The notes beneath the pieces were generated by a model. It was not told the DNA's origin. It saw only the letters and a program-made list of their open reading frames with translations, and ran no database searches. Shown here one piece after another: positions 3,300 to 33,446 of a stretch of 64,000 bases of DNA. The first letter of the stretch is position 1. Each line of letters begins with the position of its first letter. This DNA is from Bacteroides xylanisolvens XB1A (GTDB taxonomy: Bacteria; Bacteroidota; Bacteroidia; Bacteroidales; Bacteroidaceae): positions 3,625,693 through 3,689,692 of the forward strand of contig NC_021017.1 of NCBI RefSeq assembly GCF_000210075.1. Direction: 5' to 3'. A program made the translations under genes and the position numbers.

Positions 3300-3440
3300 A
3301 TACCGGTATTGTTCTATGAAAGTACCGGTATCATTAATTCCCCACGGCCGTGACAAGATCTTCCCACGGCCGTGGTAGGAACTCGTCACGGCTGTGGGAA
3401 GAAGCTACCACGACCGTGAAGAATTAAGTATACCGGTATC
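3300..3440. repeat. Array of palindromes at 21-22 bp period (TACCGGTA and CACGGCCGTG)
   Basis: TACCGGTA occurs at 3301, 3323 and 3431. CACGGCCGTG, or a one-base variant, occurs at 3343, 3365, 3387 and 3409. The four CACGGCCGTG copies are exactly 22 bp apart, and the step to each flanking TACCGGTA is 21 bp centre to centre. The 12-base spacers between copies resemble one another only when every second one is reverse-complemented. The whole array can therefore also fold as one long imperfect hairpin. Function unknown. Confidence 0.85.
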
Positions 3441-3568
3441 CTGATCGAACAATAGTTATTGAATGATATAAGTATGCCGGTTGTATGACGGATGTTTAAT
3501 GGAGGCTTTTCTTGAAAGGTAAGTAAAGCTGGAGGGATATGAGATATGGGAGAGCAAAATCATAAAAT

Positions 3569-3613
3569 AATAGGCTGACAATAAAACTTATAAAATGTTA
3601 TTGTCAGCCTATT
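3569..3613. repeat. Perfect 16-bp inverted repeat with TGACAATAA motifs
   Basis: AATAGGCTGACAATAA (3569-3584) is the exact reverse complement of 3598-3613, with a 13-base loop. Further TTATTGTCA-type copies lie at 3609 (one mismatch) and 3622, and one in forward orientation at 3679. It lies downstream of the GH115 gene and could act as a terminator on the minus strand, although no clear T-run follows. Confidence 0.7.
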
Positions 3614-3753
3614 GTCAGGGCTTATTGTCAGCGTCTAATGTGCTGGAAATCATTCGTCTAATGAATAGGAATGACGGCTGACAATAAGAACTGCAAAATT
3701 TATATGTAAATACAATCAGTGTGAGTAATTGACTTGTCTCTACATTGATCTTT

Positions 3754-28232: not shown

Positions 28233-29240
28233 TTAGATATTTTTTACTTTAATCAGATATTCGGCAATCTGAACAGCATTCAGGGCAGCGCCTTTCTTGA
28301 TCTGGTCACCTACAATCCAGAAAGTCAATCCGTTTTCGTTTGTCAGGTCTTTGCGGATACGGCCTACGTATACCGGATCTTTACCTGCCAGGAACAGCGG
28401 CATCGGGTATTCTTTTTCTGCCGGATTGTCCTGAAGAACCAGCCCTTCACCGTTAGCGAATGCTTCACGAGCTTCTTCTACGGAAATCGGACGTTCTGTT
28501 TCTATCCAGATACTTTCAGAGTGAGCGCGTAATGCAGGAACACGTACACAAGTTGCACTAACCTTTACGTCAGAATGCATGATCTTACGTGTTTCATTGT
28601 ACATTTTCATTTCCTCTTTCGTATAACCGTTTTCTGTGAATACGTCAATCTGCGGAATCAGGTTGAAAGCCAACTGATAGGCAAACTTCTCTACAGTCAC
28701 AGGCTCGTTTGCCAATACCTGGCGATATTGTTCGTACAATTCGTCCATAGCAGCAGCACCCGCACCACTTGCTGCTTGATAGGTAGACACGTGCACGGTT
28801 TTTATATGAGAAAGCTTTTCGATGGCTTTCAGTGCAACTACCATCTGGATAGTCGTACAATTCGGGTTGGCAATAACGCCACGCGGACGTTCCAATGCAT
28901 CTTCGGCATTTACTTCAGGCACAACCAAAGGTACATCGGCATCCATACGGAATGCGCTGGAGTTGTCGATCATCACAGCACCATACTTGGTGATTATTTT
29001 TTCGAATTCCTTGGATGTTCCTGCACCGGCAGAAGTGAAAGCAATGTCTACCCCTTTAAAGTCATCGTTGTGTTGTAAGAGTTTCACCTCGATCTGTTTA
29101 CCGCGGAAAGTGTAAGTTGTTCCGGCACTACGTTTAGAACCGAACAAAACTAACTCGTCCATCGGGAAGTTTCTCTCATCGAGCACGCGCAGGAATTCTT
29201 GTCCTACGGCTCCGCTTACGCCAACAATAGCTACTTTCAT
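28233..29240 (-). CDS. asd: Aspartate-semialdehyde dehydrogenase
   Basis: A 335-residue enzyme of normal length. The nucleotide motif [18 protein letters not shown] opens the protein. [16 protein letters not shown] holds the catalytic Cys near residue 130, [20 protein letters not shown] is the family loop, and [12 protein letters not shown] carries the substrate-binding Arg and the acid/base His near 240. It reduces aspartyl phosphate to aspartate semialdehyde for lysine, threonine, methionine and diaminopimelate synthesis in the cytoplasm. It is a single-gene unit, with a TAATTTTG -7 box about 65 bases upstream and its own terminator. Confidence 0.97.
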
Positions 29241-29312: not shown

Positions 29313-29512
29313 TAACAATTTAGCATATAAACATCGCTTTTGAGAGAAATATTTCAGTTTTTCGGTGGATTTCTTTAACCTTACGTATAATCAAGTGTGG
29401 TTGTTGGATCGGATAAATGCACCAAAAGGGATGCATTCTCCGTCGCGATGCGAATCGGATTGGTTTCGTAGCTTGATAAGATTATCTTTATTGCCTAATA
29501 TTACTTCGTTTA

Positions 29513-29586
29513 ACTATAGTGTAACGCAAGGATAACTATAGTCTCCCTTGCGTATAACTATAGTCATACGCAAGAGACACTATAGT
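29513..29586. repeat. Four ACTATAGT palindromes at exactly 22-bp period
   Basis: ACTATAGT occurs at 29513, 29535, 29557 and 29579, each step exactly 22 bp. The 14-base spacers all contain the same core, but in alternating orientation: CGCAAG (29525), CTTGCG (29547), CGCAAG (29569). The array lies in the 507-bp divergent gap 29241-29747 between asd and the antiporter gene, 160-235 bases upstream of the antiporter start. No gene is seen in that gap. Confidence 0.9.
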
Positions 29587-29714
29587 AGAACGAAATAAAA
29601 GTGCCTAATGAAATAGATCTTGATAGGTAAGCGGGGGAAAAGAAGTAGTAAGGTGAGTAATTGACTACTGAATAATACGTCTGGACATTCATTGTGATTC
29701 TGCAAACTTTTTTG

Positions 29715-33264: not shown

Positions 33265-33403
33265 TTAGAGAACCTAACTTCTAAAAATGTATACCAAAAA
33301 GGTAGAGCCTTGCAAGTGTTCTATCTTTTAGCTATATATTTATAGTCGCTTCTCTACGGAAGTCTGTGAAGATGATAGTAGAGTGTTTGTTTTGTTTGTG
33401 TGT

Positions 33404-33446
33404 GATGCATTCTTGTCTGGTGTGATAGGAATGCATCTTTTTTTAT
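33404..33446 (+). terminator. Terminator downstream of the tcdA-ABC ATPase operon
   Basis: GATGCATTC (33404-33412) pairs with GAATGCATC (33429-33437), and seven T follow. It lies 140 bases after the ATPase stop and its T-run overlaps the end of the convergent HHH gene. No ORF is seen in the 140-base gap. Confidence 0.8.

Follow-up and report, generated by a model that had tools for sequence, protein, structure and literature searches.

The intergenic region between asd and a gene for a Na+/H+ exchanger-domain protein contains an array of short dyads in a fixed 22-bp register, and we predict, with a probability of about 0.7, that one protein of the HU-HIG/winged-helix type docks on this array as on an operator. 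Judged by its sequence, it is a dispersed copy of the ACTATAGT/CGNAAG type of array that is found before the gene G000:C1:3209399-3210007 and its orthologues, and these home arrays would most likely be autoregulatory operators of the HU-winged-helix genes that they precede. We use the window for the whole stretch of DNA analysed, 64 kb in length, and G000 for the whole genome searched (5,976,145 bases in one contig).

Organization of the array in the asd-exchanger gap

Four ACTATAGT dyads are located at positions 29513, 29535, 29557 and 29579, exactly 22 bp apart, and there are no others in the window. Together with three 14-bp spacers, the cores of which read CGCAAG, CTTGCG and CGCAAG, they make up the core array (29513-29586, no strand assigned), confirming both the four palindromes at exact 22-bp steps and the flipped spacer cores that were described in the initial annotation. 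Dinucleotide shuffles of the window contain a mean of 0.81 ACTATAGT sites, and four or more are present in 1 of 100 shuffles, a figure in which the exact spacing is not yet counted. The core array lies in a longer stretch (29479-29634, forward strand), consisting of the array and its 22-bp-phased flanks, which is also conserved in copies dispersed elsewhere and in the leader of the HU-winged-helix gene that is its probable cognate. At the position that a TAnnTTTG box takes in the HU leaders, the window copy has TATCTTTA (29483-29490, forward strand), which is oriented toward the exchanger gene but is not an exact box, the final base being A in place of G.

The gap is divergent, as had been proposed, with asd (28233-29240, reverse strand), encoding a semialdehyde dehydrogenase (PF01118, Semialdhyde_dh, and PF02774), on one side and the exchanger-domain gene (Na_H_Exchanger, PF00999; 29748-31883, forward strand) on the other; the last dyad is 161 bp from the exchanger ATG. 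A second array in the window, of the CACGGCCGTG family, is positioned between two glycoside hydrolase genes (3343-3418, no strand assigned), and the statement that it has the same architecture with another sequence also stands, as its spacing is 22 bp and its sequence is unrelated. When the whole window was scanned with Rfam at the gathering threshold nothing was found at either array. The sole Rfam match in the window is the BTnc201 sRNA (33348-33446, 126 bits). A different dispersed palindromic repeat, of the GCTGACAATAA type, is present at 3562-3710 and matches many places in the genomes G021 and G001; no 22-bp step was seen in it by eye.

Alignment of 15 copies (the window's, seven of G012, four of G021 and three of G009) shows that the 22-bp register extends into both flanks. 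In autocorrelation over lags 1-40, lag 22 is the highest both in the left 66 bp (0.48; mean over lags 0.318, sd 0.041) and in the right flank (0.40; mean 0.304, sd 0.034). The left and right flanks tend to pair with each other to about 66 bp out, and the units beyond the dyads, as read from the same alignment, resemble TTGCCTAAT and its complement. Among 27 distinct four-dyad arrays of the ACTATAGT family the spacers alternate in 20, follow an FFR pattern in five and FFF in one, and are unclear in one; alternation is a rule, not a law.

One leader bears on how such a pattern could arise. In L213 (1344-1417), a locus of one relative, the first spacer is the reverse complement of the third at 14 of 14 positions, and the outermost two dyads mirror each other. 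The leaders of L211 and L212 are otherwise nearly the same yet differ at the mirrored arm. L213 is probably a captured arm-conversion event between the array arms, and its mirrored arms suggest template switching between arms as the simplest reading, a process that would renew the flipped pattern. The idea of a generating mechanism, put forward when the array was first noted, gains some support from L213, where one arm repeats the other exactly in inverted orientation.

Arrays with a 22-bp step form several families

Exact ACTATAGT pairs at 22 bp occur 15 times in G000 and the looser ACTNNAGT pairs 44 times, against none for the reversed pattern in either case, but if three mismatches are allowed anywhere there are 72 pairs against 39 reversed, and the pairs are mostly chance at such looseness. 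Exact ACTATAGT pairs are present in 7 of 61 genomes searched, all seven in one genus. A scan for exact palindromes, which is too strict for imperfect dyads, covered the window and 400 kb of sampled genome and found 22-bp pairs in the window alone; arrays are sparse.

The families in G000 with a 22-bp step are ACTATAGT with CGNAAG or CAGACGAAA, ACTTAAGT with CGATAG, ACTNNAGT with GAAC, and CACGGCCGTG. A member of the CACGGCCGTG family (genome positions 2552650-2552725) is upstream of an HU-HIG gene, and both window arrays are members of families having a copy before a gene of the HU-winged-helix type. The initial annotation had treated the two window arrays as independent occurrences of one geometry; this has to be given up, since the arrays are members of families and not independent inventions.

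Two other array types in G000, GAAAC-N2-GTTTC(-N8) and GTCGGC (loci L047, L050, L051, L055, L056, L057, L058 and L046, L049, L052), also have a 22-bp step; some of these arrays have more than four units and some are between convergent genes, and none of the G000 loci of these types that were fetched has an HU protein as next neighbour. In G012, L108 and L109 represent two arrays of the ACTATAGT family starting about 257 and 272 bp apart, which match the window array on opposite strands. A further G000 paralogue (L149) has an array of its own, and a few partial copies of it are found elsewhere at 416716, 120820 and 1771535.

Arrays precede genes for HU-HIG proteins with a winged-helix-like tail

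The array families were recognised before the HU proteins were noticed. Beside four of 23 array loci the next neighbours are similar-looking proteins of about 200 residues, and four of the five array-neighbour proteins scanned match HU-HIG (PF18291) with 120-138 bits, against a cut-off of 26.2; the fifth (L040) is a SIR2. Considering 29 array loci in G000 (23 of the ACTNNAGT type, with one inside a gene dropped, and six of the CACGG type), five stand before an HU-HIG gene and 24 have no HU-HIG neighbour. About 0.2 would be expected, giving a Poisson P of 1e-6 to 5e-6 if 4000-5500 genes are assumed.

There are 33 HU-HIG matches above the cut-off in G000. Since 9 of 14 control genomes match the profile as well, some of the 33 are probably canonical HU, for example three frames that are 93-98 residues long. 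Thirty of the G000 loci were read, and 13 of these encode proteins of 199-216 residues with a winged-helix-like tail, while the other 17 encode proteins of 143-177 residues, all but one of which (16/17) end in EAPDPAA. In an AlphaFold model of one protein, residues 140-199 are arranged as helix-helix-helix-strand-strand, that is, as a winged helix, with pLDDT values of 74-85 in five of the six ten-residue blocks of the tail and 62 in the last; the HU half, modelled from an alignment with eight close sequences, is of low confidence. Foldseek gave weak matches only, none at E 0.001 or better, although these include winged-helix regulators such as CadC (E 0.01). A PDB sequence search returned four matches, the best at E 0.011 and none useful, and NCBIfam matches (HU_rel/IHF) were all sub-threshold. 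The model supports a winged helix in the tail, and the Foldseek matches, though weak, are consistent with one.

A 22-bp period is characteristic of the winged-helix HU genes

Up to 420 bp upstream of each gene was searched for the best self-match in a 24-base window at lags of 12 to 40. Among the G000 genes, lag 22 alone scores highest for 9 of 11 winged-helix HU genes, as compared with 1 of 16 HU-HIG genes whose tails are of other kinds and 6 of 189 controls (two of the 13 winged-helix genes, masked upstream, and one of the 17 others were left out), and the visible upstream parts of the two masked genes peak at 22 too. The result is weaker with an 18-base window (6/11, 1/16 and 8/189, respectively).

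The same period predominates outside G000. Lag 22 ranks first without ties in 22 of 29 loci from the 61-genome search, or 24 of 29 with ties, a set from which one of 30 was left out (67 bases upstream) and which includes L177 (the L147 gene) and L198 (wrong frame). It is best in all eight orthologue loci, two of which are already counted in other sets. Twenty loci were fetched of 22 matches (H6 and H7 were left out) in phage-labelled, Bacteroides, Phocaeicola massiliensis and Parabacteroides distasonis records; 13 are at 22, five at 21, one is a tie and one is at 14, the phage-labelled records being marked UNVERIFIED and possibly bacterial DNA. When the winged-helix HU genes were pooled and thinned (n=64, from Bacteroides, Phocaeicola, Parabacteroides and relatives, with orthologues still included and without L177, L198, L201, L207, L208, L210 and L225), 49 are at 22, eight at 21, four tied at 22 and three other, whereas of the control genes (n=189) six are at 22, four at 21, two tied and 177 other. 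A best period of 22 with a score of at least 17 is seen in 48/64 genes against 2/189 controls.

Home arrays often begin near a promoter-like box

The sequence TAnnTTTG is the Bacteroides -7 type box. Counting a box if its end falls no more than 10 bp inside or 80 bp ahead of the computed start of the array, one is present close to that start in 24 of 43 HU leaders and absent from 19, compared with 204 of 3780 control placements; nine of the 43 leaders are one orthologue group and L210 repeats L180, and without the nine loci of this ACTATAGT orthologue group the box is present in 15 of 34 leaders. As 17 of the 24 boxes end 4-12 bp ahead of the array start, and arrays often begin about 10 bp after the box, in many leaders transcription would be expected to start close to where the array begins. 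The home arrays are thus upstream of the putative regulator's own gene and often near its predicted promoter, whereas the window copy is dispersed and is not so placed.

Arrays of the ACTATAGT family also avoid convergent gaps. None of 31 places, orthologous ones included, is between convergent genes; assuming that convergent gaps make up 15-20% of all gaps, the chance of this is about 0.001-0.006. Two gaps hold two arrays each, and the assignment of L043 to a gap is unsure, since it is within an open frame that extends over masked bases. One ACTTAAGT copy is between convergent genes.

The window copy, its probable cognate gene and its dispersal

The probable cognate of the window array is G000:C1:3209399-3210007 (L041), 0.45 Mb away, the leader of which has a ACTATAGT array with CGCAAG cores. 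The assignment rests on these cores because L147 and L150, two G000 paralogues with 42% identity, both have ACTATAGT dyads, with differing cores. Orthologues at 80-98% identity are present in G021, G009 and G012, and at least 15 ACTATAGT pairs are found in G000, G021, G009 and G012 only, with no more than four in the other 57 genomes, but this correlation is weak alone, since the four genomes are near relatives and it is confounded by descent.

An alignment of the asd gap, which had been proposed as a check, was run across species only. In G021, where the asd DNA is 96% identical over 599 bases, the gap lacks some 260 bp that include the array (29412-29671 in the window, no strand assigned, with approximate breakpoints and diverged flanks). 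The array is absent as well from the gap in G012 and G001 (the gaps of G021, G012, G001 and G009 were inspected), and the element is therefore dispensable here. In G009 the region is divided between two contig ends, one with the left flank and the other with the right part; unrelated sequence is found at both ends, and two dyads are seen. The starts of these contigs, G009:C136 and G009:C116 (L067 and L118), have mutually complementary ends of the AGAGCCTGTTTAAATT type, and TTA is found on both sides of the split array, as an IS insertion would leave.

The contrary case raised in the initial annotation, that the region is a remnant of a mobile repeat, is thus correct in part: homologous copies of the window array are present elsewhere, with 74-89% identity in the longest matches, and the asd-gap copy is missing from G021. 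Such dispersed copies and the presence or absence at the asd gap, together with the long inverted symmetry and the longer flanks that some ACTTAAGT copies have in common, are what would be expected if the array were the body of a MITE-like element spread by some transposase, with the HU neighbours incidental. We consider this unlikely. The HU association covers dozens of arrays of other sequence, convergent gaps are avoided, and neither a clear target-site duplication nor sharp ends were seen in the alignment of copies or in the single filled and empty pair (G000 and G021, differing by about 260 bp with diverged flanks). Matches to the Y1 transposase profile PF01797 number two in G000 and one in G012, but the array-bearing genomes G021 and G009 have no match at E 0.001, and a Y1/RAYT transposase was rejected as a necessary driver.

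Probable selection of the array as DNA, not RNA

The array could instead act as RNA, as a long leader hairpin controlling transcription or translation downstream. The window array folds better than shuffles (z -5.2, and -8.4 for its sister array), and in the HU leaders the array precedes the start codon and follows the promoter-like box in those leaders that have one. However, DNA palindromes fold as RNA anyway, and an array in the divergent asd-exchanger gap cannot serve both genes as a leader. Moreover, when the best palindrome of each of 38 HU leaders was examined, the mismatches comprised 114 G-T and 105 A-C, with no G.U bias, which favours DNA over RNA as the form under selection. A role as RNA is therefore quite improbable.

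Sequence and spacing are probably both read

The repeat sequences differ widely among paralogues, and related ones share pieces, such as ACGAAA, by eye. Orthologues keep the sequence, with ACTATAGT arrays before 8 of 8 found in named or uncultured Bacteroides records (74-82% protein identity). The spacing thus looks like a family property and the sequence mostly a paralogue property. Six of the eight period-21 genes (L165, L197, L203, L236, L237 and L240) adjoin in the protein tree. It had been argued from one geometry with different sequence that geometry is read, and one protein family preceded by arrays of the same geometry and varying sequence largely bears this out; the accompanying claim of a structure-reading and not sequence-specific protein fares less well given the conservation in all eight orthologues, and probably sequence and spacing are both read. 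A generic structural site (a cruciform, for example) read by canonical HU without paralogue specificity is hardly credible, as the preference of the canonical Porphyromonas gingivalis HU, PG0121 (about 10 kDa), for a 77-bp inverted repeat preceding the capsule operon, described in the accessible part of PMC3969353, has to be set against a motif that is kept among orthologues but changes between paralogues, and against the adjoining of the period-21 genes.

A model for array function

We return to the array as an operator-like site for an HU-winged-helix protein, for which the following scheme is plausible. Dimers of the protein would sit side by side, one per 22-bp unit. The winged helix would read the bases specific to the paralogue, and the HU part would bend or clamp the DNA and so set the step. 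Occupancy at the transcription start would repress or tune the HU gene itself, and the exchanger gene could be repressed or tuned likewise through the window array. Template switching between arms would renew the flipped spacers and the long palindromes.

A broader proposal is that the HU-winged-helix family, with its 13 genes in G000, constitutes largely separate regulatory channels, built on a fixed scaffold and 21-22-bp register with co-diversifying arrays and with copies that rewire other genes. We advance this tentatively and would put it at somewhat less than an even chance, having lowered our estimate because two paralogues share the ACTATAGT dyad. Each protein would be a hybrid of nucleoid protein and sequence-specific repressor that wraps DNA in 22-bp steps; template switching between arms may aid the co-diversification of paralogue and array, and dispersed copies may carry a promoter and array to other genes, as at the exchanger gene.

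For a large and little-characterised protein family of gut bacteria, sequence alone now predicts a DNA target, and candidate target genes can be listed by finding a 21- or 22-bp array before the gene and then its copies elsewhere. The arrays also offer a natural series in which binding geometry is constant and sequence varies with the paralogue, suited to the study of operator and regulator co-divergence, and the proteins might serve as regulators in the engineering of gut commensals. The long inverted repeats found close to Bacteroidales genes, so far a puzzle, become directly testable.

Comparison with known systems

HU-HIG (PF18291) is described as HU fused to a wHTH, an Ig or a glycine-rich motif, which fits the array-neighbour proteins in that they match the family and have a winged-helix-like tail, but the family description names no DNA sites. 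No description of arrays before HU-HIG genes was recognised in the open-licence literature among the matches listed. REP/BIME repeats are short intergenic palindromes in many copies, associated with Y1 transposases; the arrays resemble them as multicopy short intergenic palindromes, but here there is no dependence on a Y1 transposase and the 22-bp register is fixed.

The PG0121 system is alike in that an HU-superfamily protein is paired with an inverted repeat, long and imperfect, that precedes an operon in Bacteroidales, but the accessible part of the report describes no 22-bp period, paralogue-specific arrays or dispersed copies (PMC3969353). BrickBuilt, a P. gingivalis MITE, is intergenic and dispersed, with 23-nt tandem repeats, inverted ends and promoter activity, and in the part of the source available its repeats are head-to-tail and of one sequence, with IS-like leader and tail ends (PMC4596501). 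Arrays of the window type have 22-bp dyad units, mostly flipped spacers, many sequences and a link to a protein family, and identity with BrickBuilt was rejected because 22-bp dyad units with mostly alternating spacers are not 23-nt head-to-tail repeats. A regulator with an operator array is a known kind of system; the combination of fixed geometry with variable sequence is an unusual design.
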